This document shows positions 13,027 to 37,117 of a stretch of DNA of 64,000 nucleotides, one piece after another. The stretch lies in contig NZ_FNCS01000003.1 in assembly GCF_900100665.1 (NCBI RefSeq), positions 310,001-374,000 on the forward strand, in the 5' to 3' direction. The translations under genes were made by a program, and so were the position numbers. The notes under the pieces are model-generated. The model saw only the letters and a list, made by a program, of their open reading frames with translations, did no database searches and was not told the DNA's origin. Every line of letters begins with the position of its first letter. Positions within the stretch are counted from its first letter, which is position 1. This stretch comes from Pelagibacterium luteolum (GTDB lineage: Bacteria > Pseudomonadota > Alphaproteobacteria > Rhizobiales > Devosiaceae).

Positions 13027-13222
13027 GTCATCCCGACCTTGAGCCGGGACCCAGTATCCTCCGAAGACGATACGATCCCCAAAAACCCCATCCCGCGCCG
13101 AGCATACTGGATCCCGGGTCTCCGCCCGGGACGACACCATTGCTGAAAATTCGCTCGCCAAGACGCAAAGCCGGCGCGCCCATCCCCCAATTGTCACCCT
13201 CGGGCTTGACCCGAGGGCCCAG
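13027..13222. repeat. repeat cluster in the gap 12924-13282 (A, inverted A, B)
   Basis: A type A element (13027-13063), a type A element in the opposite orientation (13100-13135, GAGCATACTGG...GGGACGAC) and a type B element (13193-13222) lie in a row. I see no gene in the rest of this gap. The head-to-head order of the two A copies recurs at 26652-26764 and 36837-36945. Confidence 0.8.
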
Positions 13223-25851: not shown

Positions 25852-26493
25852 ATGACCACTGACGAGGCCGAGGCCACCCGCCCGGTGACGCGCATCCAGC
25901 GTGAAAAGCAGGAAGTGATTCTCGAAGCCGCGCTCGACGTCTTCTCCAAATTCGGCTTCCGCGGCTCGACCATCGACCAGATCGCCGAGGCCGCCGGCAT
26001 GTCCAAACCGAACCTGCTCTATTATTTCAAATCGAAAGAGGACATCCACGCCCCGCTCCTCGCCCGCATCCTCGATACCTGGCTCGAACCCCTGCGCGAG
26101 ATGGACCCGGCCGGCGACCCCCTGCCCGAAATTCAGTCCTATATCCGCCGCAAGCTCGAAATGAGCCGCGACTTCCCGCGCGAAAGCCGCCTGTTCGCCA
26201 ACGAAATGCTCCGCGGCGCCCCCGGCTTTTACGATATCCTGCACACCGATCTGAAAAACCTGGTCGATGAAAAGGCCAAGATCATCAAGGGCTGGATGGC
26301 CCAGGGCAAACTCGCCAAGACCGATCCGTATCATCTGATCTTTTCAATCTGGGCCACCACCCAGCACTACGCCGATTTCGACATTCAGGTCCGCGCCGTC
26401 CTCGGCCGCGAACGCGGCGCCGAAGGCCGCTTCGAAGACGCCGCCCGCTTCCTCGACCAACTCTTCCTCCACGGCCTGAGCCCTAAGAAATAA
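25852..26493 (+). CDS. rutR: TetR-family regulator of pyrimidine use, RutR-like
   Basis: The 213-residue protein has an N-terminal TetR helix-turn-helix (about residues 17-65: ILEAALDVFSKFGFRGSTID, PNLLYYFKSKE) and the RutR-type C-terminal domain, including RKLEMSRDFPRESRLFANEM and HLIFSIWATTQHYADF, which match E. coli RutR closely. RutR is released from DNA by uracil or thymine. GGGAGG stands eight bases before the ATG. It is divergent from the pyrimidine block and very likely controls it and itself. Confidence 0.93.
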   Translation: MTTDEAEATRPVTRIQREKQEVILEAALDVFSKFGFRGSTIDQIAEAAGMSKPNLLYYFKSKEDIHAPLLARILDTWLEPLREMDPAGDPLPEIQSYIRRKLEMSRDFPRESRLFANEMLRGAPGFYDILHTDLKNLVDEKAKIIKGWMAQGKLAKTDPYHLIFSIWATTQHYADFDIQVRAVLGRERGAEGRFEDAARFLDQLFLHGLSPKK

Positions 26494-26969
26494 AGCTGCA
26501 ACCGGGACGAACCCTCTCCCTTTGGAAGAGGGTGTCCGGCAGTCCGATGAGCGGCCACGCCCCCAACCGTCATCCTCGGGCTCGACCCGAGGACCCATCT
26601 CTCCGCAACCACACCCCACGCCATCTTCCAAACCGCCAACCCCACCCCCACCGGTCATCCCGGCCTTGAGCCGGGACCCAGTATGCTCCGCATCAATTGG
26701 TAGCCACCAACGCCCAATCTCCGCCCCCGAGCATACTGGATCCCAGGTCTCCGCCCGGGACGACAGATGGTAGCTACTCTCTCCCCGTACCCTGAACTCC
26801 GCCCGGGACGACAACGGCGGCCACGCCCCCAACCGTCATCCTCGGGCTCGACCCTAGGACCCATCTCTCCACATCCCCAACCTAAATTATCTCCCAACCA
26901 CCTCTACCCTCACGCCCACGCGCAAACCCGCCCCCCTCTAGGAGCGCCCCAAAACACATCAGCGAAAAC

Positions 26970-27014
26970 AGAAAAAGGTCCTGCAAGCGGCTTTGGCGCT
27001 CCGCCTGCAGGACC
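26970..27014 (-). terminator. minus-strand rho-independent terminator-like hairpin
   Basis: GGTCCTGCAAGCGG (26977-26990) and CCGCCTGCAGGACC (27001-27014) pair over 14 positions, 13 as Watson-Crick pairs and one as a wobble, around a ten-base loop. On the minus strand the stem is followed by TTTTT (26972-26976), the classic terminator order. On the plus strand no T run follows. No minus-strand gene ends here, so it would terminate an unannotated transcript. Confidence 0.6.
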
Positions 27015-27050
27015 AAGGGGCAGGCCTCACTCCTGCACGCTTTTCCTAGC
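26970..27050 (-). ncRNA. candidate small RNA ending at the minus-strand terminator
   Basis: The terminator needs an RNA that begins somewhere between here and the kaiC start. A weak promoter (TTGTGA at 27074-27079 and TATGTG at 27052-27057, 16 bases apart, minus strand) would give an RNA of about 80 bases containing the stretch AGGAGTGAGGCCTGCCCC and then the hairpin. I recognise no known RNA family. Boundaries are guesses. Confidence 0.25.
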
Positions 27051-27219
27051 GCACATAAACATGACTGTAAAGGTCACAATTAAAATTTCTGGCGTCATGG
27101 ACGCCCCGTTCATCCGCCGGATGCAACATTGCCCTGACCGCCTGTTTCTTGGGCAAAATACTATTCGCGCTTGCGTCGGACCGGTGTTAGCAATGGGCGG
27201 AACAGACGAGGCGTTGCAT

Positions 27220-28656
27220 ATGACCAAGCAAAAGAAGGCCAAGCCTATATCCACCGGCGTGGTTGGCTTGGATACGATCCTAAGAGGTGGTCTGCCCCCC
27301 TCCAATCTTTACATGCTCCAGGGTGCGCCCGGCGCGGGCAAGACCACGGCAGCGCTGCAGTTCCTGCTCGCAGGCGTCGAAGCCGGCGAGCGCTGCATCT
27401 ATGTCAGCCTTTCCCAGACCGCGAACGAACTCGCCCTCATCGCCGCGTCCCATGGCTGGTCGATGGATGGCATCCGGATCGAGGAACTCTCGGCCTCCGA
27501 CGCCGTCAATGGCTCGTCGGACCAGACGATCTTCCAGACCTCCGAACTCCGGCTCGATGAAACCCGCCAGGCTATCGAAAAGGCCATCGACGAGTACAAG
27601 CCCAGTCGCCTGGTCTATGACTCCCTTCTCGAAATTCGCCTCATCACCGGCGACTCCCCCCGCTTCCGGCGCGAATTGATCGGGTTCAAAGCCTTCCTCG
27701 CCAAGCGCAACGTCGTCGCACTTCTGCTCGATACCCAGGATGGCGACGGCCGCAATGGCGAAGAGGTCGAAGGCATTGCCCATGGCGTCATCCGCTTCGA
27801 CAAATCGCTCGAGGACTACGGCGCCGTCCGCCGCCGCGTTGAAGTTTCCAAGATGCGCGGCGTGCCCGTTGCCGATGGCTATCATGACATGGCCATTCGC
27901 GAGGGCCAGGGCGTCGTCGTCTTCCCACGCATCGTCGCGGACGCCGCTGTGGAAGCCAAGCCCACCGAATTGATCAAATCGGGCGTTGATACGCTCGACT
28001 CCATGTTCGGGGGCGGTCAGGAAGCGGGCACCATAACGCTGGTCATCGGCCAGTCGGGCACCGGCAAATCAACCATGGCGTCGCTCTATTCCTGCGCCGC
28101 ACTCGAGCGCGGGGAAAGCGTTGCGCTGTTCCTGTTCGAAGAGCGCCTGGAGACCTTCTTCCGCCGCTCGGAAGGCCTGGGCATGAACCTCAGGCCCTAT
28201 CACGAGTCCGGCCAGCTCATCATTCGCGACTTCAACCCCAACGAAATCTCGCCGGGCGAATTCGCCCAGATCGTCCAGACCATCGTCACCAACGACGACA
28301 GTCGCGTCGTGGTGATCGACAGCTTTACCGGCTACCTCAACTCGCTGCCGCACCGCGAAAAGGCAGTGCGCGATATCCAGTCGCTGCTGAAATATCTGGC
28401 GCGCGCCGGCGTTCTCACCATGCTCATCGTCGCTCAGCACGGCTTGCTCGGCCAGAATGTCGGCCTCGACGTCGATGTGAGCTTTTTGGGCGATACGGTC
28501 TTGCTGCTGCGTCTGACCGAGCACGACGGCCGGCTACGCCGCAACATCACCGTCGTCAAGAAACGCCACGGCCCGCACGATCTCGAAGTCCACGAACTGC
28601 TGATCGCCGGCTCGGGCATCAAGGTCGTCCCCTACAACCCGCTGCCGGAGCCGTGA
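27220..28656 (+). CDS. two-domain KaiC-like ATPase
   Basis: The 478-residue protein contains two RecA-like KaiC domains in tandem, with Walker A loops GAPGAGKT (35-42) and GQSGTGKS (277-284). The second domain has the FEER glutamate pair (E307, E308), the catalytic pair of KaiC CII. In the first domain the equivalent place reads YVSLSQTANE, so the pair is missing. S421 lies where KaiC has its first phosphosite; the adjacent threonine is phenylalanine here. I chose the ATG at 27220, which has GAGG eight bases upstream. No kaiA or kaiB is nearby. Its stop overlaps the kinase start (GTGA). Confidence 0.9.
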   Translation: MTKQKKAKPISTGVVGLDTILRGGLPPSNLYMLQGAPGAGKTTAALQFLLAGVEAGERCIYVSLSQTANELALIAASHGWSMDGIRIEELSASDAVNGSSDQTIFQTSELRLDETRQAIEKAIDEYKPSRLVYDSLLEIRLITGDSPRFRRELIGFKAFLAKRNVVALLLDTQDGDGRNGEEVEGIAHGVIRFDKSLEDYGAVRRRVEVSKMRGVPVADGYHDMAIREGQGVVVFPRIVADAAVEAKPTELIKSGVDTLDSMFGGGQEAGTITLVIGQSGTGKSTMASLYSCAALERGESVALFLFEERLETFFRRSEGLGMNLRPYHESGQLIIRDFNPNEISPGEFAQIVQTIVTNDDSRVVVIDSFTGYLNSLPHREKAVRDIQSLLKYLARAGVLTMLIVAQHGLLGQNVGLDVDVSFLGDTVLLLRLTEHDGRLRRNITVVKKRHGPHDLEVHELLIAGSGIKVVPYNPLPEP

Positions 28657-29693
28657 CCAAGAACACCGCGTCCTTATTCGACCACGTTCTCATCCTGGCA
28701 CCCTATCGCCGGGATGCGGAATATTTGGCTCATCTGTTGGGCCAATACGAGGTGCATTGCGAAATCGGTTCGAGCACGGACGACCTCAGCGGTCTTCTGG
28801 CGAACGCGCCTGCCGTGCTCATGGCCACCCATGAAGCGCTCACACCCGTCGTGATTTCCAGCGTCGCCGAGCACGTGCGATCCCAGCCCGACTGGTCTGA
28901 AATCCCAATCGTCGTCCTGCTCGATCGCGCCTCCAATGACGGCCGCGTCCGCACGCAATTGGAACGCGCCTGGCCCCGCTCCCGCCTGCTCTTTTACCGC
29001 CGCCCGGTCACTACCGTCGAACTGCTTAGCGGCGTGCAGTCCGCCCTTCTCGCCCGTCACCGCCAGCGCGATGTGCGCGATCATATCGAACGCGAAGTCG
29101 AGCTGCGGCGCGAACTCAACCACCGCGTTAAGAACATCCTGGCCAGCGTTTCGTCGATCTTTGAAATGACGCGCCGCAACGCGACCTCCGTCGAAGCGCT
29201 CGCCGACGATTTCAGGGGTCGCCTCAACGCCCTCGACAAGGTGCACTCAGCGGTCTTCAAGGCGGAAACCGACAACATTTCCCTCGAGGACGTCGCAACG
29301 ATCACCCTCGAGCCCTATCGCAGCACCATGGGCCACCGCATCGTTTTCGGCGGCCCTCCCGTCATGCTGATGGCCGAAACCGGCACGTCGCTCGCCCTCT
29401 GTCTGCATGAACTCGCGACCAATGCCAGTAAGTATGGAGCCCTCTCGGCCCCGGGCGGAAGCGTATCGTTTGTCTGGTCGACGACCGGCGGTCCCCTACC
29501 CGAACTTGCGCTGGAATGGCAGGAGAGTGGCGGCCCATTGGTCGAGACGCCGGCCCAGGCCGGATACGGCACCCGCTACGTGCGCGCGGCCCTTGGCGGA
29601 ATCCTCGGCACCAAGCCGGTTTTCCACTTCGAACCGCAAGGATTGCGGGTCACGGCAGAGGGACCACTTTCGCGAATATCGGCAGCAACTTAA
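28653..29693 (+). CDS. HWE/HisKA_2-type sensor histidine kinase with degenerate receiver domain
   Basis: The 346-residue protein has no membrane helix. Residues 8 to about 135 look like a receiver fold that lost its acidic pocket (APYRRD where paired acids are expected, LMATHE where the phospho-aspartate should be). Residues 150-175 hold the phosphoacceptor box, with H157 in ELNHRVKNILASVSSI, and the ATPase domain has N257 in HELATNASKYGAL, both typical of HWE-group kinases. The GTG start overlaps the KaiC-like gene by four bases. It likely takes input from that protein and phosphorylates the next gene's product. Confidence 0.9.
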   Translation: MTKNTASLFDHVLILAPYRRDAEYLAHLLGQYEVHCEIGSSTDDLSGLLANAPAVLMATHEALTPVVISSVAEHVRSQPDWSEIPIVVLLDRASNDGRVRTQLERAWPRSRLLFYRRPVTTVELLSGVQSALLARHRQRDVRDHIEREVELRRELNHRVKNILASVSSIFEMTRRNATSVEALADDFRGRLNALDKVHSAVFKAETDNISLEDVATITLEPYRSTMGHRIVFGGPPVMLMAETGTSLALCLHELATNASKYGALSAPGGSVSFVWSTTGGPLPELALEWQESGGPLVETPAQAGYGTRYVRAALGGILGTKPVFHFEPQGLRVTAEGPLSRISAAT

Positions 29694-29711
29694 ATCGATC
29701 GACGACGTTAG

Positions 29712-30098
29712 ATGCCTATGCAAGACCCCACGCCGTCCCGGCTCTCCAGACCGCTCCGTATTTTCTATCTGGAGGACAATCCCTTGATTGTCTTCCATGT
29801 CGAGCAGATGGTCGAGGATCTGGGCCATATATTCGTCGGTTCGGCCGACAGTTTCACCCAGTTGCAGGACATCTTCAAGGACCTCGAAGTCGACGGCGTC
29901 CTCGTCGATATCGACCTCAAGGATGGCCCGACCGGTCCCCAAGCCGCCGCCTGGCTCAAGGAGCGCGGCATCGACAGCGTCTTCGTCACCGGTCAGGAAC
30001 AGGTTGCCGCCGCGCACGGAAATGTCTCGCTTGCCACCTTGGGCAAGCCTGTTCTTGAGGCCCAGCTTGGCGAAAAGCTGGAACTCTTCCGCACCTGA
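29712..30098 (+). CDS. single-domain response regulator
   Basis: The 128-residue protein is a lone receiver domain: acidic pair E21 and D22 (YLEDN), phospho-aspartate D66 in LVDIDLKDG, T93 in FVTG and K112 in GKP. There is no output domain, so it must act by protein contact or phosphotransfer. It lies 18 bases after the HWE kinase and is its probable partner, as is common for this kinase group. The receiver resembles those of the short regulators encoded beside HWE kinases in rhizobia. Confidence 0.9.
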   Translation: MPMQDPTPSRLSRPLRIFYLEDNPLIVFHVEQMVEDLGHIFVGSADSFTQLQDIFKDLEVDGVLVDIDLKDGPTGPQAAAWLKERGIDSVFVTGQEQVAAAHGNVSLATLGKPVLEAQLGEKLELFRT

Positions 30099-30123
30099 TT
30101 TAGGGCCGCCGCCCGCTCTTTTT

Positions 30124-30261
30124 CTATTTCTTGCCGCGCGGGCTCCCCGCGTCGATGGCGCGCTTGAACTGGTCGGCGGGCGTTGACGCCTCGACCTTGC
30201 CTGTCTTTTCCTGCTTGGGCTTTTTGACTTCCCGATTGCTGCGTTTCTGACCCTTGGCCAT
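30124..30261 (-). CDS. small basic protein (45 aa)
   Basis: The reading frame from the ATG at 30261 gives MAKGQKRSNREVKKPKQEKT followed by a short segment ending AIDAGSPRGKK. About one third of the residues are lysine or arginine. I recall similar uncharacterised proteins from rhizobial genomes. It is convergent with the response regulator gene, whose stop is 25 bases away. The strongly basic composition suggests nucleic acid or ribosome contact, but this is only an inference. Confidence 0.6.
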   Translation of the reverse strand: MAKGQKRSNREVKKPKQEKTGKVEASTPADQFKRAIDAGSPRGKK

Positions 30262-30348
30262 GTCGGTTGTATCCTCGGTTTGAATGAAATTGCAGGAACC
30301 AGATGGTCCCCGCCAGATGACGTCATCGCCGCGAAGCCTGCGTCGTGC

Positions 30349-30546
30349 CTAAAGATGCACGCCCGCCCGGCCCGCTTCGTCGAGCACCACGGTCTCGATG
30401 TCGTGGAACGCGATATGATCGAACCGATCGGCATAGGTCTTGATGATCTTGTAGCGATCGACCTGTTCGCGATTGTGTCGCTGCCGCTCGGCGAACTGCC
30501 GCATGTCGGACCGCACCACATCGCGCAGATTGTCGTTATCGTTCAT
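30349..30546 (-). CDS. small hypothetical protein (65 aa)
   Basis: The frame starts MNDNDNLRDVVRSDMRQF and ends HDIETVVLDEAGRAGVHL. GGAGG lies ten bases before the ATG at 30546. Composition is charged and not repeat-like, which supports a real gene. No family or function is recognised. It is 87 bases upstream of the small basic protein on the same strand and could be transcribed with it. Confidence 0.5.
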   Translation of the reverse strand: MNDNDNLRDVVRSDMRQFAERQRHNREQVDRYKIIKTYADRFDHIAFHDIETVVLDEAGRAGVHL

Positions 30547-30803
30547 TGAGAGCACCGCCTCCTCCGGGCACCCGGCGCGGCCACACTATGCGCCTCAAGA
30601 CCGGCAATTGCCACTGCCCTTGCTATTTGTCCGGGTAGGGCGCATAAAGAGTTACGTTTTCAGCCATCTTTGGCAGACTGATCACCGGCTCAGCCGGATT
30701 GCTTGGCGACCCCACGATTTTTGCGAACGCGCCTAACCTGCAATCATGCGGGCGGCAATTGCGCTCGCGTCTTTCGTCCGAGCCAACCGAAAAAGATATT
30801 TCC

Positions 30804-31013
30804 ATGACCAATGGCACAGTAAAGTTCTTCAATTCCGCCAAGGGCTTCGGCTTCATTTCGCCGACCGACGGATCCAAGGATGCCTTCGTCCACATCAGCG
30901 CCGTCGAACGCGCTGGCATGTCGACCCTCAATGAAGGCCAGAAGGTCTCCTACGATCTCGAATCCGGTCGCGACGGCAAGGTCTCGGCCACCAACCTGCA
31001 GTCTGCAGACTGA
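30804..31013 (+). CDS. cspA: cold-shock protein, CspA family
   Basis: The 69-residue protein is a single cold-shock domain with both RNA-binding motifs, KGFGFISP (RNP1) and DAFVHIS (RNP2). It binds single-stranded nucleic acid and keeps RNA unfolded. The gap of 257 bases before the start codon includes a likely long leader, as is common for csp genes. A terminator lies ten bases after its stop. The ATG at 30804 was chosen because the cold-shock domain begins directly there. Confidence 0.96.
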
Positions 31014-31022
31014 TAATTATGA

Positions 31023-31048
31023 GGGTCGCCGGATCGGCGGCCCTTTTT
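31023..31048 (+). terminator. terminator or attenuator after cspA
   Basis: GGGTCGCCG and CGGCGGCCC form a nine-pair stem (one G-T pair) with a GAT loop, followed by TTTTT. The next small gene starts 16 bases later, so partial read-through may feed that gene. Confidence 0.85.
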
Positions 31049-31063
31049 CGACAGGATACCACC

Positions 31064-31276
31064 ATGACAAGCAACCTCCGTTCGGTCGCCGAAACCCGCT
31101 TTGCCGCCCTTGTGCGCCGTGAAGATGCGGCCATGACGACCCTTGAGGACGAACAGCGCGCCGTTCGCGAGAAAACCGCACGGCTCAAGGCCCTGCGCCT
31201 CGCCACCGAAGCGCGCACCATTGCCGAGCGTACGGCCCAGCTCAAATCGCGCCGCCGCGCCAAAGCCGCGACCTGA
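31064..31276 (+). CDS. small helical protein downstream of cspA (70 aa)
   Basis: The protein begins MTSNLRSVAETRFAALVRRE and is rich in alanine, arginine, glutamate and leucine throughout, so it should be almost fully helical and charged. No known domain is recognised. It follows the cspA terminator directly; expression probably depends on read-through from the cspA promoter. Short proteins of this kind occur next to csp genes in related bacteria, to my memory, but no function is established. Confidence 0.65.
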   Translation: MTSNLRSVAETRFAALVRREDAAMTTLEDEQRAVREKTARLKALRLATEARTIAERTAQLKSRRRAKAAT

Positions 31277-31396
31277 TACGAAAAGACCCTGTGCCAAGTG
31301 TGGACGAACTTCGCCCACTTGCCTCGGTCACCCCTTGAGCCAACCGGCCCGAGATACGCGTTCCGGCCCTGCGCCGGACAATTCGAGGACGATACA

Positions 31397-31570
31397 ATGC
31401 GCCTCCCCCTCGCCCCTTCGGCATCCAAGATCATTGCGTTTCCGCACGCCATTCCCACAAGGCTCGGCTCGGATTTCGACCACGCGCAATATCCAAGGCT
31501 CGCCCGTGCGCTGGCCCCGCTCGCTCCCGTCCTGACACCCCTCGCTCTCGCCCCCACGCTCCATCCGTGA
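31397..31570 (+). CDS. possible small protein (57 aa)
   Basis: The frame starts MRLPLAPSASKIIAFPHAI with GAGG eight bases upstream of the ATG, and ends in a proline- and alanine-rich stretch. No family is recognised. Its stop overlaps the GTG of the next short frame by four bases (GTGA), the arrangement used by coupled genes elsewhere in this window. It could still be a chance frame. Confidence 0.35.
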   Translation: MRLPLAPSASKIIAFPHAIPTRLGSDFDHAQYPRLARALAPLAPVLTPLALAPTLHP

Positions 31571-31689
31571 GCCGCCCGATCGCCGCGCGCATCGGTCTGC
31601 ACTGGCACCAGAAAGCCGCCAATTGGCTGGCCCTCACCGGTGCACTGTCCATCGTCACATACGTCGTCGCGGTTCATGGCCTGACCTGA
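31567..31689 (+). CDS. possible one-helix membrane peptide (40 aa)
   Basis: From the GTG at 31567 the frame encodes MSRPIAARIGLHWHQKAANW followed by one hydrophobic segment (LALTGALSIVTYVVAVHGL). This looks like a small protein with a basic cytoplasmic head and one membrane helix. It has no ribosome site of its own and would rely on coupling to the preceding short frame. Support is limited to these features. Confidence 0.35.
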   Translation: MSRPIAARIGLHWHQKAANWLALTGALSIVTYVVAVHGLT

Positions 31690-31770
31690 CCGCACACCGA
31701 CAGCGCACCGTTGTTGGATCGAAATCGCGTCTGTGTCGTTAGCCAGTTCCCGGCCAACAGCGAGAGCGTC

Positions 31771-32184
31771 ATGTCAGATCAGTTTACCCCCTACGCCTTG
31801 GTCGCGGACGATGATGCCCTCATCCGCCTCGACGCCGTATCCATCCTCGAGGACGCCGGCTTTCGTGTTCACGAAGCCAACAATGTCGAGGAAGCGCTGG
31901 CCATCCTGGACGCAGCGCCAGCGTCGATCCAGTTGCTCTTTACCGATGTCCATATGCCCCCCGGGGCCCGCACCGGGTTCGATCTCGCCCGCGAATGCGC
32001 GGAAAAATGGCCCCATGTGGGCATCCTCGTCGCCTCCGGCATGGCCAAGCCGCGCCCCGGCGACCTCCCCGACGGCGCGGTTTTCATCCAGAAGCCCTTC
32101 AGCGCCGACGTCGTCATCGAACACCTCCAGAATATCCTCCCCGACGGCAGAAAGCCCGAACGCCTCCTCAAACGCGCCACATAG
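31771..32184 (+). CDS. single-domain response regulator (second)
   Basis: The 137-residue protein is a receiver domain with the acidic triad D13-D15 (VADDDALIR), phospho-aspartate D59 in LLFTDVHMPPG and K108 in FIQKPF. It has a short C-terminal tail and no DNA-binding domain. It belongs to the CheY-like group that partners HWE kinases in alphaproteobacteria. No kinase gene is adjacent, so the HWE kinase at 28653 is a possible partner. Confidence 0.88.
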   Translation: MSDQFTPYALVADDDALIRLDAVSILEDAGFRVHEANNVEEALAILDAAPASIQLLFTDVHMPPGARTGFDLARECAEKWPHVGILVASGMAKPRPGDLPDGAVFIQKPFSADVVIEHLQNILPDGRKPERLLKRAT

Positions 32185-32262
32185 AGCCGGCAACCCGATA
32201 CGTGACACGCCGCCCGGCAGCCCCTAACCTCCCCAGCGACTCCAAATCTCAAGGTTTGCTCA

Positions 32263-33390
32263 GTGCCGGCTGCAGACTCTTTCACGCTCAAAACCGCGCG
32301 CACATCCGCGACCTTCGGCTATGGCCCCGCCGGCGCGATCGTCGAAATCGCCGATCCGCTCCCCGAGTCCTATTGGGCCCATCCGGCCAACGCATGGTCT
32401 CAGCTCATGGCGTCCCGCATCCCGGGTCTCGAAAACATCTGGCTCAAATATGAAGGCAGCCATCTCAGCGGCTCGTTCAAGGACCGCATCATGGCCGCCA
32501 GCCTCGGCGAACTTTTAGCCCGCCAGCCCGATTGCCCCGGAATCGTCGTCCCATCGAGCGGCAATGCCGCCATATCGGCCGCCGCCCTTTGCGCCCGACG
32601 CGGCCTGCCCATGGTCGCAATCGTGCCGACCACCGTTCCCATCGAGCGCCTCCGCCCGGTCACCAGCCGCGGCGCTATCCTCATTCGCGCTGGAGAAGGG
32701 CCGAGCCAGTCCTACGCCCTTGCCGACCGCCTGTCCGAAGCCCTCGGTTTTTTCAAGCTTTACTCGACCTTCGCCTCGCCATGGGCGGAATGGGGGTGCC
32801 GCGCCATCGGCCGCGAACTCGCTGGCCAGATGACCCAACCCATCGCTCGCATTCTTGCCCCGGTCAGCGCCGGCCCGGTCCTCATCGGCACCGCCAACGG
32901 CCTTGCCGAAGCCGGCCTGCCGCTGCCCCAGCTTGTCGCCGTCCAGGCCGCCGGCTGCGCGCCCATCGCCCGCGCCTTCGCCCTCGGCCATGATGATGTC
33001 GCACCGTGGGACGATTCCGTCGAGACCAAAGCCGCCGCCATCGCCGATCGCCTCGCGGGCTACCCCCAGGACGGCACGCGCGTCCTCAACGCCGTCCGCG
33101 CCAGCAACGGCTCTGCCGAAGCCGTCACCGACCTCGAGCTCGCCTCCGCCCGCGCCGCCCTCCTCAAATACGACGGCCTCGATGCTGAATTTTCCGCCTG
33201 CGCCGCAATCGCCCTTTTGATGCGCGAACCCCATCTCGCCACCCCCGGCACCGTCGCCATCATCACCGCATCGGGCTTTAAACACACCTACGCCGGAGAC
33301 GCGCCCACCCCGTCCCCGGACCTCGCAATCCTTGACACCCTCAAGACGATCCTCGCCACCCTCGCCCCCGAGGCCAGCATCGGCGCCTGA
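32263..33390 (+). CDS. PLP-dependent enzyme, threonine synthase/diaminopropionate ammonia-lyase fold
   Basis: The 375-residue protein has the fold-type II signature: PLP lysine K73 in LSGSFKDRIMAA and the phosphate-side motif PSSGNAAISAA. The spacing fits threonine synthase, threonine dehydratase or cysteine synthase relatives, but it lacks features that would name one reaction. A cofactor-glycine loop of the usual type (near VSAGPVLIG) is present. The GTG start has AAGG eight bases upstream. No amino-acid biosynthesis genes are adjacent, so the substrate is unknown. Confidence 0.8.
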   Translation: MPAADSFTLKTARTSATFGYGPAGAIVEIADPLPESYWAHPANAWSQLMASRIPGLENIWLKYEGSHLSGSFKDRIMAASLGELLARQPDCPGIVVPSSGNAAISAAALCARRGLPMVAIVPTTVPIERLRPVTSRGAILIRAGEGPSQSYALADRLSEALGFFKLYSTFASPWAEWGCRAIGRELAGQMTQPIARILAPVSAGPVLIGTANGLAEAGLPLPQLVAVQAAGCAPIARAFALGHDDVAPWDDSVETKAAAIADRLAGYPQDGTRVLNAVRASNGSAEAVTDLELASARAALLKYDGLDAEFSACAAIALLMREPHLATPGTVAIITASGFKHTYAGDAPTPSPDLAILDTLKTILATLAPEASIGA

Positions 33391-33393
33391 ACT

Positions 33394-33897
33394 CTAACTC
33401 CGAGGCCGCGTAAAATTGTCCTCGAAATGCTCGACCAGGGCTTCGAAGCGCGGCTTGTCTCGTGCCGGGAAGGTGATTTCGAAAGCCGCGAAGGTCTCGT
33501 GATCGGGCGAGAACAGAACTTTTGTGTAAAAGATCGTGTCGTCCAACGCGCCATCGTCATAATAGCCCGACAAAACGAACCAGGACTCCCCTCCAGCGCG
33601 ATACGTCGTCGTCGCTGCGCGCGCAGCCGTTTCCAGCTGGGCCTCCAACGCCGCGCGCGTCATGCCCTGCGCCGACCCACCATTGAGGTTGATGGTAGCC
33701 ACCCCGCCGATCTCGCTGAGCGCAAGTCCCGGCGTCCCCTCCGCATCGACGACCTCAAAAGCCCCCAATGGCAAATCCGCCGAAAAGCCATAGACGGGGT
33801 CGATATAAGGCTCCCACCCATACCCACTCTGCGCCAGCGCAGACGGTGTTCCGGCCATCAACCCAACGACAACCCCCAGTGCAGCCAGTCTCAACAT
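33394..33897 (-). CDS. exported hypothetical protein (167 aa)
   Basis: A signal peptide is clear (MLRLAALGVVVGLMAGTPSA, cleavage after ALA before QSGYGWEPY). The mature part of about 145 residues has mixed composition, including YIDPVYGFSADLPLGAFE and FAAFEITFPARDKPRFEALV, and no cysteine pair. I recognise no family beyond a general resemblance to small periplasmic alpha/beta proteins. It is convergent with the PLP enzyme (three bases apart) and lies downstream of the beta-lactamase-like gene on the same strand. Confidence 0.75.
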   Translation of the reverse strand: MLRLAALGVVVGLMAGTPSALAQSGYGWEPYIDPVYGFSADLPLGAFEVVDAEGTPGLALSEIGGVATINLNGGSAQGMTRAALEAQLETAARAATTTYRAGGESWFVLSGYYDDGALDDTIFYTKVLFSPDHETFAAFEITFPARDKPRFEALVEHFEDNFTRPRS

Positions 33898-34011
33898 CTC
33901 TCACTCCAGAACAGTGGGACCTAATTCCCAATGTCCCGGGTCCGGGAATGTTCCTGTAAGCATCGAGACATACGTCCGATGATATGGCGGCTTTGGGGTG
34001 GCAAACGGACG

Positions 34012-34045
34012 GTCTGCTTTCCGGCAGACACCTCGGAAAGCAGAC
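34012..34045. other. perfect 12-base inverted repeat downstream of the beta-lactamase-like gene
   Basis: GTCTGCTTTCCG (34012-34023) and CGGAAAGCAGAC (34034-34045) are perfect inverted arms around ten bases. The loop contains another GCAGAC, so a shorter alternative stem (34012-34017 with 34024-34029) is possible. No T run follows on either strand, so it is not a canonical terminator. It may end the ampC-like transcript or lie in the leader of the exported protein gene. Confidence 0.7.
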
Positions 34046-34112
34046 GCCTCACGGAATGCGTCACCGGCCCCAGCCGGATGGCCGGCGGGGCAAATCACTC
34101 ACAGCGTCAAGG

Positions 34113-35270
34113 TCAATCCATGGCAGTGAGTGCTTCAAGCACCGTGTGCACGGCATTAATCCGTGCTGGCATGAACACGTTCTTGTTAGCGAGCATAACG
34201 ACGCCGATAGCTTCCTCTGGAACAAAGGCCACGTACGCGCCAAAACCGTTAGTTGACCCGGTCTTGCCAAAGAGGGTGGCTCCTGACGCTCCCTCATCTG
34301 CTGCCAATGCCGCAGCTGGGTTGGGCTCCATCGCCATAGTTCTGGAATTGCCCGCCAGAAGTTCCTCCGCCGTCAGCGGATATGGCATCTGCTCCCACCC
34401 CAGGCCCTGGGTCATAGGGCCAACCTTGAAGTAGCCTACGTGCGTGGCTTCGATGGCAGGCTGCAAATCTGGATCAAGCACTTCGGGATGGATGTTTGCA
34501 TCCACAAAGGCGATCATATCCTCGGCGCTGGACTTCACCCCATAAGCCTCGTCGTCAAAAGGGCCGGGATTGACCCGGATGGGTTGATTGTTGGCGTCAT
34601 AGCCCCAGGCGTACGAGGCAATGTGGCTTTCCGGCACCCGAACGAACGTGTGATCTAGGTCCAAACCCGCCAAGATCTTTTCTTCCAGCAGTTTGGAAAA
34701 TTCGTCGTCCAACGCGCGTGCTGCCAGATGGCCAAAAAACCCGATGCTGGGATTGGAATAGCGCCGGACTTCACCCGGGGCCGCATCGGGCTGCCACCCG
34801 GCGAGATAGGACAAAGCTTCTTCGTCCGTGGCGATGCCATCAGGGAACTGGAGTGGCAGCCCGCCGGCGGTATAGGTTGCCAGATGCGCCAGTGTGGCTT
34901 TGTCGATAGGCGATCCCTTAAGTTCAGGGATGTAGCGCGATGCCGTCTCATCGAGTGTGAGCTCGCCTCGCGCCAGAGCATAGCCGCCCAGTGCTGCCGT
35001 GAAAGTCTTGCTCACCGAACCAAGCTCGAAAATCGTGTGCTCGGTGACCGGGTCTCCGCTCTCCAATGAGGAGACCCCATAGTTAAAGAAGTGGTGCTGG
35101 CCGTCGATGGTTATGGCTATTGCCATGCCGGGGACGTCGTACTCTTCCATGAGCGGCGCGAACGCGTGATCGACGGCAACAGCAAGTTCGGGGTGATCAG
35201 CCGCATTTACCAGAACAGGGCAGAAGACGAGGCACGCTGGCAACGCCAGATTGATGAAGTGACGCATCAT
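34113..35270 (-). CDS. ampC: class C beta-lactamase-like serine hydrolase
   Basis: The 385-residue protein has a signal peptide (MMRHFINLALPACLVFCPVL, cleavage near VNA-ADH). It shows the three class C motifs: nucleophile S85 with K88 (SVSK), Y171-S-N173 (YSN) and K336-T-G338 (KTG). Length and motif spacing fit AmpC beta-lactamases; esterases of the same fold are less likely given the YSN and FGKTGSTNGFG regions. No divergent ampR is present. A palindromic site stands just upstream. Base use looks less C-biased than in neighbouring genes, so acquisition by transfer is possible. Confidence 0.88.
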   Translation of the reverse strand: MMRHFINLALPACLVFCPVLVNAADHPELAVAVDHAFAPLMEEYDVPGMAIAITIDGQHHFFNYGVSSLESGDPVTEHTIFELGSVSKTFTAALGGYALARGELTLDETASRYIPELKGSPIDKATLAHLATYTAGGLPLQFPDGIATDEEALSYLAGWQPDAAPGEVRRYSNPSIGFFGHLAARALDDEFSKLLEEKILAGLDLDHTFVRVPESHIASYAWGYDANNQPIRVNPGPFDDEAYGVKSSAEDMIAFVDANIHPEVLDPDLQPAIEATHVGYFKVGPMTQGLGWEQMPYPLTAEELLAGNSRTMAMEPNPAAALAADEGASGATLFGKTGSTNGFGAYVAFVPEEAIGVVMLANKNVFMPARINAVHTVLEALTAMD

Positions 35271-35612
35271 TTTTCTCTTTCCAGTTTGTGTAAATTTACA
35301 CGCGGCGGAAAAGACCGCGGCTGCGTGACACCATTGGGGCAGCGCAAAAGGCTGTCACTCATGATGGTTTATGGTGGGTAAATATCAACACGCTGTCCCC
35401 ACCTGCATCTCATAGCCTAAAGTCTTCCAAATTCAGAGACTGTCTGGTGGTGCCTGCGATCTGCGCCCCCCCACCCGCCTCACAGGCTTGAAGCCGCACT
35501 GGGAGAGGACCACGCGGAACCCAATCCATTTTGCCTCAGTTGATACTGCTGGCAGCTTCGAGGATTTCACAGATTGGCTGCTAAAGACCGCTTTGGGGTC
35601 GAAACCAGCCCC
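35271..35612. other. 342-base gap upstream of the beta-lactamase-like gene, no gene seen
   Basis: The first 130 bases are relatively AT-rich and contain the palindrome at 35288-35301. The rest, up to the acetyltransferase stop codon, shows no convincing reading frame, terminator or palindromic repeat. Confidence 0.6.
35288..35301. promoter_or_regulatory. perfect 14-base palindrome, operator candidate for the beta-lactamase-like gene
   Basis: GTGTAAATTTACAC reads the same on both strands and ends 18 bases before the start codon, where a repressor would block initiation. It does not match the AmpR or BlaI operators that I know. The binding protein is unknown. Confidence 0.6.
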
Positions 35613-36107
35613 CTACCCCGCCCACCGCTCCATCAACAAACACCGCCCCCAGTCCGTCTGCCGCACGTCCTTGCGCACGAACCCCAACTTCTCATAGGTC
35701 CGGATAGCGCGGGCGTTGTCGGGATGCGGGTCGGTGCCGATGGCCGGGGCGCCGGCGGCAAAGAGCTGATCGATACGGGCGCGGATAAAACCAGTGCCAT
35801 GCCCCCGCCCGAGCATGTCGGGCTCGCCGATAAACTGGTCGATGCCGCGCGACCCCGGCGGCAGATGAAAAAAATGATGCCCCTCGACCGCGTGCGGATC
35901 GTAATCCTGCATATAGGCAAAGGACCGCCCCTCGAACGAGACGATCCACCTCTCGACATCCGGTTCATCGAGATCGTCGGCCATGATCGGATCGGCGGGA
36001 TTGCCCTCGGCATCGATCCACCATTGGCGCACCGCCGGCGTCTCCAGCCAGCGATGGATCATCGGAAGATCGGAAACCGTAACAGGGCGAAAACGATAGG
36101 CCTGCAT
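35613..36107 (-). CDS. GNAT acetyltransferase, aminoglycoside 6'-N-acetyltransferase-like
   Basis: The 164-residue protein has the start typical of AAC(6')-like GNAT enzymes (YRFRPVTVSDLPMIHRWLET), a central SFEGRSFAYMQDYDP strand region, the acetyl-CoA loop GRGHGTGF and the C-terminal HPDNARAIRTYEKLGF. The family includes aminoglycoside-resistance and siderophore-acetylating members; the substrate here is unknown. It lies 43 bases downstream of the rirA stop codon on the same strand. With the ampC-like gene nearby it may form a small resistance region. Confidence 0.85.
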   Translation of the reverse strand: MQAYRFRPVTVSDLPMIHRWLETPAVRQWWIDAEGNPADPIMADDLDEPDVERWIVSFEGRSFAYMQDYDPHAVEGHHFFHLPPGSRGIDQFIGEPDMLGRGHGTGFIRARIDQLFAAGAPAIGTDPHPDNARAIRTYEKLGFVRKDVRQTDWGRCLLMERWAG

Positions 36108-36149
36108 GGCGCGCGCTCTCCCTGCGCTTGCCGCCGGGGCGCCTGAACT

Positions 36150-36605
36150 CTAGTTCAGCTCCAGCCCAAGCATCTCGATCCCCAGCCGCGAGCGCATGGC
36201 GCGGCGTTTGTCGGTGAGGTCGGCAATCGTATAGGAGCGCAGAACGGCAAAGAACGCTTCGAGCGCTTCGTGCAGCGCGGCGTTCAACTCACACCCGCCA
36301 ACCAGCGGACAGCTCGTCTCACCACCTTCGAAACATTCCGCCAGCGCGAAATTTTCCTCGGTGAGCTTGATGACGTCGAGCAGCGTGATTTCCGACGCCG
36401 CCCGCCCCAGCCGAATGCCGCCATGCCGACCACGCACCGTGTCCAGCAGATGGTTCTCGACAAGCGGCTTGATCAGCTTGAACAAAAACAGCTCGGATAT
36501 GCCATAGGCCTTGGCGATGTCGCTGACGCGCGAAAGATCGGGCGAATTGATCGCGCAATACATGAGCGTGCGAACGGCATAGCTCGATTGGCGTGTCAGT
36601 CTCAT
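36150..36605 (-). CDS. rirA: Rrf2-family iron-responsive regulator RirA
   Basis: RirA is the iron-sulfur-sensing repressor of iron uptake genes in rhizobia and relatives. The 151-residue protein begins MRLTRQSSYAVRTLMYCA, has the Rrf2 winged helix with RGRHGGIRLG, and three cysteines C91, C99 and C105, the same numbers and spacing as the cluster ligands reported for RirA. I chose the ATG at 36605, which has AAGGG seven bases upstream and matches the family start. IscR would have a different cysteine spacing. Confidence 0.93.
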   Translation of the reverse strand: MRLTRQSSYAVRTLMYCAINSPDLSRVSDIAKAYGISELFLFKLIKPLVENHLLDTVRGRHGGIRLGRAASEITLLDVIKLTEENFALAECFEGGETSCPLVGGCELNAALHEALEAFFAVLRSYTIADLTDKRRAMRSRLGIEMLGLELN

Positions 36606-36712: not shown

Positions 36713-36780
36713 AAACCTGACGCCGCTGTTCAGGTTTGAGTGGCGCAGCACCCCCACCCCACCTGTTGGTCCTCCCCCTC

Positions 36781-37032
36781 CCGTCACCCTCGGGCTCGAC
36801 CCGAGGGCCCAGCAAGCACCCGCCCCAACCAACACCTGTCATCCCGGCCTTGCGCCGGGACCCAGTATCCTCCGCGACAAATGGCGCCCCCAGCATCCCA
36901 CCAACCTCGAGCATACTGGATCCCGGGTCTCCGCCCGGGATGACACCTGTGGGCTTGCCCCCACACAGCCACCAGCCACCCGTCACCCCACCCCCACCCG
37001 TCACCCTAGGGCCCGACCCGAGGGCCCACGCA
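36781..37032. repeat. repeat cluster between rirA and the nucleoside hydrolase (B, A, inverted A, B)
   Basis: In the 512-base gap 36606-37117, a type B element (36781-36813), a type A element (36837-36875), an inverted A element (36909-36945) and another type B element (36998-37032) lie in a row. This B-A-A'-B order resembles the cluster before the kaiC operon. No gene is seen. The elements are within 90 to 340 bases of the nucleoside hydrolase start and may be in its leader. Confidence 0.85.
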
Positions 37033-37117
37033 GCGCCAACCCCAACCACCGCGCCCGCCCCTTCCCTTTCCCTCACGCTTGGCTACGATCCCCACCGCGA
37101 ATCGTAAGGAGCAGAAT

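Follow-up and report, generated by a model that had tools for sequence, protein, structure and literature searches.

The kaiC-kinase-receiver locus

We analysed a stretch of 64,000 nucleotides from Pelagibacterium luteolum (contig NZ_FNCS01000003.1, positions 310,001 to 374,000; the window), in which a gene for a KaiC-like ATPase is followed by genes for a histidine kinase and a lone receiver. All three are on the forward strand. The kaiC-like gene (27220..28656) encodes 478 amino acids with two KaiC domains, CI (about 27247-27927) and CII (about 27973-28632). Its start at 27220 agrees with the starts of close relatives (e.g., L021, 480 amino acids). The kinase gene (28653..29693) overlaps it by 4 bases, starts with GTG, and encodes a soluble protein of 346 amino acids with the phospho-acceptor H157 in the motif HRVKN. 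The lone receiver gene (29712..30098; 128 amino acids) starts 18 bases past the kinase end. Its likely acceptor, assigned by eye, is D66, and it carries an FVTG motif related to that of the FATGUY receivers.

An original prediction, made from the letters alone, had described three overlapping or nearly touching genes for a KaiC-like protein, a soluble HWE kinase and a single-domain response regulator. Pfam searches agree with these assignments. The KaiC ATPase profile matches the first product in two stretches with 248.5 bits, above the cut-off, and the DnaB_C and RecA profiles match it as well. The kinase matches HWE_HK with 81 bits (cut-off 22.8) and has the HRxxN motif of HRVKN; PF00512 (HisKA) gives no match to it up to an E value of 0.01. 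The lone receiver matches Response_reg with 32 bits (cut-off 30.2). The genome holds a single match to the window's KaiC at 1e-20; the broad KaiC Pfam model reaches three further weak sites in short stretches of 21-41 bits. The observation that no kaiA or kaiB is near can be extended to the whole genome, where both the KaiB (PF07689) and the KaiA (PF07688) models have 0 matches. In controls over 14 known genomes the KaiB model matches 6 and the KaiA model matches 1. No relative of the kinase was found in a scan of viral contigs.

Active sites of the KaiC-like protein

Related loci were obtained by scanning a genome collection with a KaiC alignment, and the best 80 of 232 confirmed matches were used. 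Twelve of these 80 are 79-89% identical to the window's KaiC and form a clade of 13 with it; the other 68 are at 40-46%. The residue counts for KaiC cover the 13 clade members (window included) and 88 relatives, 101 proteins in all. L077 and L092 were left out of the alignments, and L122 was left out of the residue counts. Equivalences to E77/E78, E318/E319 and S431/T432 were derived from offsets in an alignment with solved KaiC.

S65-Q66 (codons TCC CAG, 27412..27417) aligns opposite the catalytic glutamate pair of CI. The original prediction had read this as replacement of the pair by SQ. The residues are indeed S65-Q66, but only one glutamate has been lost. The first place is already Ser (82/88) or Ala (6/88) in the relatives, so the peculiarity of the clade is the loss of the sole remaining CI glutamate. 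The column of Q66 is Glu in 88/88 relatives and Gln in 13/13 clade members (codon CAG or CAA), and no CI glutamate stands at a shifted place. In CII, E307-E308 (28138..28143) aligns opposite the glutamate pair, and E308 is present in 101/101. Both residues had been described as kept. E307 is found in 13/13 clade members, but 87 of the 88 relatives have Asp there, and because their CII reads Asp-Glu, E307 is itself a mark of the clade. S421-F422 (28480..28485) lies opposite the two phosphosites S431-T432. As proposed, only S421 remains, since the Phe at the second site is not phosphorylatable. Column 421 is Ser or Thr in 101/101; column 422 is Phe in 13/13 clade members and Tyr in 86/88 relatives. 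The C-terminal tail is also lost. From column 469 on, 13/13 clade members have only 10-12 residues, against 26-46 in 87/88 relatives, and 83 of the 88 relatives have a GxLxGxP-type motif.

The Walker A Lys of both domains, D134, D367, K211, R213, K447 and R449 are kept in 101/101. The nucleotide-binding set of CI, with D134 as the Walker B Asp and K211/R213, is thus intact in all 13 clade members. Apart from Q66, the clade has a different fixed residue in 15 CI columns that are at least 85% conserved among the relatives. The ratio of nonsynonymous to synonymous differences (pN/pS) over eight pairs is 0.02-0.19 for CI and 0.02-0.21 for CII. Because of this purifying selection and the kept residues, we consider CI to be held in a changed state, and not to be decaying. 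In RecA-type ATPases, Gln in place of the catalytic carboxylate normally halts or slows hydrolysis. With Gln at this place and its nucleotide-binding residues kept, CI looks like a non-hydrolysing structural domain, which agrees with the earlier view that one domain is structural or slow.

The protein shares with clock KaiC the two tandem KaiC domains, Walker A in both of them, and the CII catalytic glutamates. Unlike cyanobacterial KaiC, it lacks the CI glutamates, the second phosphosite, and a C-terminal A-loop and tail of the KaiA-binding kind, and its genome has no KaiA or KaiB match. The closest counterpart of the CI change is a laboratory variant. With E77Q/E78Q, cyanobacterial KaiC has 22% of its ATPase activity left and keeps its phosphorylation; it remains in the ground state and fails to bind KaiB (PMC5007536). 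The lack of a KaiB match in the window's genome is in keeping with this. Glu77 has been named as a catalytic glutamate of cyanobacterial CI (PMC6549140). The window's protein resembles this variant in its two domains, the Gln in CI and the intact CII glutamates; it differs in that its Gln arose naturally and is shared by a whole clade, and in the Ser at the first CI place.

The clade of 13

The clade consists mostly of Hyphomicrobiales, plus Sphingopyxis and L024. The L024 contig is assigned to a metagenome-derived genome labelled as a cyanobacterium (Kaiparowitsia implicata) and is possibly a contaminant. The kinase is of the HWE class in 13/13 members, and a lone receiver follows it on the same strand in 13/13. 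A cluster peculiar to this strain is ruled out by these 13 members with the same set, although their receivers are of two types.

In a quick KaiC tree the 13 form one group with full support in the Shimodaira-Hasegawa-like approximate likelihood ratio test (SH-aLRT 100); their stem is 2.78 changes per column long, and the inner branches are short. L121 stands beside the clade in this tree, a possible long-branch effect. HWE cores also occur in L072 (Methylobacterium), L083 (Chelativorans), L118 and L121, and the HWE label changes at least three times on the starred branches of the quick KaiC tree. The tree of the HWE cores again shows the 13 as one group (99/99), with L083 and L118 as a pair apart and L072 and L121 elsewhere. 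The starred branches of this tree allow a single origin of the KaiC-linked HWE cores (at least 1), which 0% of 200 bootstrap trees show. New in this clade are the HWE core in place of HisKA, the CI Gln, the missing C-terminal tail, and the lone receiver behind the kinase.

The N-terminal domain of the kinase is a predicted pseudo-receiver

In L013, L014 and L015, whose KaiC proteins are 41-43% identical to the window's and whose gene order is the same, kaiC is followed by a HisKA hybrid kinase instead of an HWE one. The first 130 residues of these kinases nevertheless resemble those of the window's HWE kinase. This N-domain (residues 11-139, 28683..29069, forward strand) is the main feature that the original prediction missed, and it marks a wide kaiC-kinase operon family.

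Pfam barely recognizes it. The window's N-domain has no Pfam match at E values up to 1, and only 5 of 82 N-domain copies reach Response_reg at that level (best E 0.02). A profile of the 82 copies searched against the Protein Data Bank has receivers on top (best 6.6e-5; PhoB 7e-5). AlphaFold predicts a (beta-alpha)5 fold at residues 12-116, with a predicted local distance difference test score (pLDDT) mostly of 93-97. A single helix, 121-176, ends the receiver part and at the same time opens the dimerisation domain, which contains H157. In a structure comparison, the predicted kinase matches the PleD receiver (Z 15.9, root-mean-square deviation 2.3 over 135 residues), and the rest matches the kinase core of Brucella LOV-HK (Z 22.1). 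The N-domain of SasA has a KaiB-like, thioredoxin-type fold. A KaiB-like or SasA-like N-domain is ruled out here by the predicted receiver fold and by the receivers that head the profile matches; no KaiB or SasA is among the 60 of 75 profile matches listed. KaiA and CikA carry pseudo-receivers, and their absence among the listed structure matches excludes nothing.

The residues point to a receiver that is degenerate at its phosphorylation site. At the place of PhoB Asp53, the 82 N-domains have Glu (57), His (13, the window's clade; H60), Asp (7), Ala (4) or Gly (1). The receiver Lys is replaced by Arg in 82/82 (R117 in the window). Q78, W81, P85, R117, P118, R135 and Q138 (window numbering) are invariant in 82/82. 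The N-domain of about 130 residues is thus, by its predicted structure, a pseudo-receiver. A first hidden Markov model (HMM) of it also matched the C-terminal receivers of the same proteins. It was set aside and not used as evidence, because its training set could include receivers. A second HMM, built from N-domains alone, matched none of the C-terminal receivers.

The N-domain belongs with one kaiC subfamily

An N-domain gene lies directly downstream of kaiC on the same strand in 79 of the 80 loci, which come from several phyla. In the exception, L077, no N-domain is found in the roughly 820 bases that remain on the contig. In a Pseudomonas (L095:7492-9153) the N-domain is frame-shifted behind kaiC, with the domain start in another frame. 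The reverse test used 337 whole genomes of the class. At more than 100 bits they hold 21 N-domain copies, every one immediately 3' of a subfamily kaiC, of which 20 are complete and one is cut by the contig end. Other kaiC-like matches in these genomes have no adjoining N-domain match (0/15). For one further kaiC piece, G131:C458, the downstream side is not visible because the piece stops at the edge of its contig. Seven more N-domain matches score at most 41 bits. Weak copies may be missed, because the initial pass was limited to 12 N-domain and 4 KaiC candidates per genome. These counts support the view that KaiC and the kinase belong together.

The kinase core behind the N-domain varies. Of the 79 kinases, the 67 outside the clade were scanned: 65 are HisKA and two are HWE (L072 and L083), and 60 have a receiver of their own. 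The N-domain is constant while the class of the core changes, and it links different kinase classes to KaiC. At L015:1794-3677, in a member of the family to which the window's genome belongs, a free PAS-HWE kinase lies directly behind the HisKA-type kaiC kinase. It is a possible source for a core exchange.

We compared pairwise distances between loci for 63 of the 67 kinases, leaving out L072, L083, L095 and L092. A part of the kinase that contacts KaiC should drift with KaiC, and the core should not. The correlation of KaiC distances is 0.847 with the N-domain and 0.611 with the kinase core. The partial correlation with the N-domain given the core is 0.745, and with the core given the N-domain it is only 0.113. 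The N-domain tracks CI (partial 0.531) over CII (partial 0.169). When 70% of the loci were drawn 200 times, both differences had 5-95% ranges that exclude zero (0.532 to 0.734 for N-domain against core, -0.455 to -0.273 for CII against CI). The co-divergence therefore supports a contact between KaiC and the N-domain.

Lone receivers and possible output

In Caulobacter and Sphingomonas, kinases of the HWE and HisKA2 classes signal to lone FATGUY receivers and to PhyR (PMC5964349, PMC5898713). Like MrrA and SdrG of this group, the window's lone receiver adjoins an HWE kinase in a genome with PhyR (375.9 bits, cut-off 240), with FVTG for FATG (PMC5964349, PMC5898713). Unlike them, it has the motif only in part: it reads DSVFVTGQ, and the L025 receiver IPVLFVTGQ, against PFxFATG(G/Y) of the FATGUY motif. 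Both the type of the receiver and the HWE class of the kinase make the general stress response of alphaproteobacteria the likely output. KaiC proteins of Methylobacterium extorquens have a role in resistance to UV and to temperature (PMC8069551).

Against the PhyR model, the window's lone receiver scores 40.4 bits in the receiver part, and many other receivers of the genome have similar scores. BLASTP of the lone receiver against the PhyR locus gives an E value of 0.48, which is uninformative as the strand and frame of the locus were unchecked, and a Sigma70_r4_2 search was too broad to be informative. A second lone receiver (31711..32184, forward strand) is of the second type, the one that follows the kinase in the 6 remaining clade members; its link to the module is uncertain. 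Only in the window, among the 13, do lone receivers of both types occur less than 3 kb from the kinase. In L026, which has the other type, the receiver is a short open stretch of only 222 bases.

Proposed mechanism and alternatives

Taking these results together, we regard it as somewhat probable that the locus is a signalling module in which a kinase reads out KaiC, and that it is not a clock. The KaiC-like protein, judging from its family, would form a two-tier ATPase ring. The CI tier would hold ATP without cycling and so serve as a fixed docking platform, because its sole catalytic carboxylate is replaced by Gln. The kinase would dock on CI through its N-terminal pseudo-receiver; reading by docking is suggested because this receiver cannot be phosphorylated in the usual way. 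The CII tier, with its Glu pair and Ser-431-type site, would carry the variable state, either bound nucleotide or phosphorylation. This state could pass through the ring to the last helix of the pseudo-receiver, which is predicted to continue into the dimerisation helix of the kinase, and from there to the HWE core. The core would then autophosphorylate on H157 and hand the phosphate to D66 of the lone receiver, with the general stress response as a likely end output. Docking on KaiC would thus replace control by receiver phosphorylation of the kind known from ExsG.

A more far-reaching form of this proposal is tentative. The pseudo-receiver may be a receiver worn down to a KaiC-docking adaptor, which would serve as the read-out for the whole non-clock KaiC subfamily in pairings with several kinase cores. 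In one clade, a naturally hydrolysis-dead CI would then be an ATP-bound scaffold and CII alone would signal. By analogy with the ring-forming HWE kinase ExsG, a KaiC ring stacked on a kinase ring is possible.

Several results weigh against the docking proposal. The E77 place is already Ser in the subfamily, so Q66 may lower hydrolysis to a greater or lesser degree. The acceptor Asp is still present in 7 of the 82 N-domains. The figure of 79/80 speaks for one subfamily only, because the query consisted of four KaiC proteins whose operons all have the N-domain. Shared inheritance of the operon together with core exchange could also yield the co-divergence, which is support for a contact and not proof. 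The lone receiver is not one orthologue: the window's type is found in 7/13 clade members and another type in 6/13. Neither type occurs within 3 kb in the other HWE-linked operons (0/4). A search of the window for the general-stress promoter of one spacing gave 0 matches, with 0.97 expected. Finally, no match to this kaiC at 1e-20 exists in 12 congeners (0/12), so the module is accessory.

Other readings differ mainly in what they make of the two tiers. The Ser or Thr at column 421 in 101/101 would suit an hourglass timer, in which slow phosphorylation and dephosphorylation of S421 in CII measures hours without KaiA or KaiB and the kinase reads the result. The pace of the cyanobacterial clock is set by CI hydrolysis, which is probably lost here, the second phosphosite is Phe, the C-terminal tail is gone, and the genome has no KaiA or KaiB match. 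We therefore think a timer improbable, even though one was proposed in 2011 for a HisKA relative in Ramlibacter (PMC3164672) and phosphorylation persists in the E77Q/E78Q variant (PMC5007536). That CI is not dead at all, but has an altered active site, slower or redirected, formed by Q66 with other clade-specific residues (among them E34Q, E111R, D172T and D180G), is unlikely in our view, if a little less so than the timer. The 15 further CI columns fixed differently in the clade and the strong purifying selection speak for such a site. The usual effect of Gln for the RecA-type carboxylate is to stop or slow hydrolysis, however, and no new acidic residue is fixed in the clade next to Q66.

The signal might also run in the opposite direction, with the kinase and receiver setting the state of KaiC, which would then be the effector, for example a RecA-class ATPase that remodels nucleic acid or protein. 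In its favour are the position of kaiC at the head of the set, the match of its product to the DnaB_C and RecA profiles, and the fact that a receiver normally controls some output. The pseudo-receiver, however, occupies the input side of the kinase as a sensor would, and in 60 of 67 relatives the kinase has its own receiver, as if passing the phosphate on; we judge this reading to be doubtful, much as the timer. Least probable by far is the absence of any functional link, with genes that travel together by chance on mobile DNA. The island that carries them is strain-specific within the genus (kaiC in 0/12 congeners) and its site is closed in 4 of 8 congeners fetched, which a chance association would allow. 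It would not account for the gene overlap, the co-divergence, or the co-location in 79/80 loci of several phyla and in 21/21 whole-genome copies. The docking of the kinase on KaiC accommodates these and is the reading that we prefer.

Relation to known systems

The family as such is already known, because kaiC with a specific kinase and without kaiB was described in 2011 (PMC3164672). That paper reports a 'dark-blue group' of kaiC and Nt_HK operons with no kaiB and with SY, TY or SF sites, co-transcribed in Ramlibacter, and it proposes a family of KaiC-interacting kinases (PMC3164672). The RtaNt domain of these kinases matched a receiver and was also likened to SasA and KaiB (PMC3164672). Judging by that description, RtaNt is probably the N-domain described here. 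The window shares with the 2011 family the order of kaiC and a kinase with the conserved N-domain, phosphosites of the SF kind, and the genome without kaiB. It differs in that its kinase is HWE, where the 2011 family was drawn with HisKA and HATPase_c (PMC3164672). In place of the likeness to KaiB and SasA, fold prediction and profile search give a receiver. In the accessible part of PMC3164672 we found no mention of the CI Gln, the tail loss, the HWE core or the co-divergence with CI. No report of a KaiC-HWE operon was found in the literature searched, with subscription journals mostly outside its reach.

ExsG is a soluble kinase with a receiver and an HWE core that forms a native hexamer of 226 kDa and works with stand-alone receivers (PMC3899027). 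The window's kinase is like it in its N-terminal receiver and HWE core, its solubility, and its similar size (ExsG about 38 kDa per subunit). In ExsG the receiver takes its phosphate on Asp62 and acts as an inhibitor of the kinase (PMC3899027), whereas the window's kinase has His at the acceptor place, Arg at the Lys place, and kaiC upstream.

For signalling by KaiC relatives outside cyanobacteria, the N-domain offers a concrete candidate interface of 130 residues. A clade in which Gln has naturally replaced Glu provides a ready way to ask whether KaiC signalling requires hydrolysis in CI at all. The predicted receiver fold also corrects the earlier likening of the N-domain to both a receiver and KaiB/SasA.

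Genomic surroundings

The whole module lies in about 9.6 kb (26498-36150) between tetR (25852-26493) and the stretch that starts at window position 36150. In 4 of 8 congeners fetched, tetR is followed by that stretch after about 180-220 bases. In the other 4 the gap is 0.9-4.9 kb, and blastn matches none of it to the window. A tRNA search at 15000-45000 found none. The gene at the far end of the island looks, by eye, like Rrf2. Because the site is closed up in congeners and repeats stand at its ends, the module is probably a recent acquisition of this strain. The repeats are direct copies of an intergenic repeat (26551-26897 and 36765-37062), about 10.2 kb apart. They share 72 nucleotides at 81% and 41 nucleotides at 93% identity, and a related copy lies near 13194.

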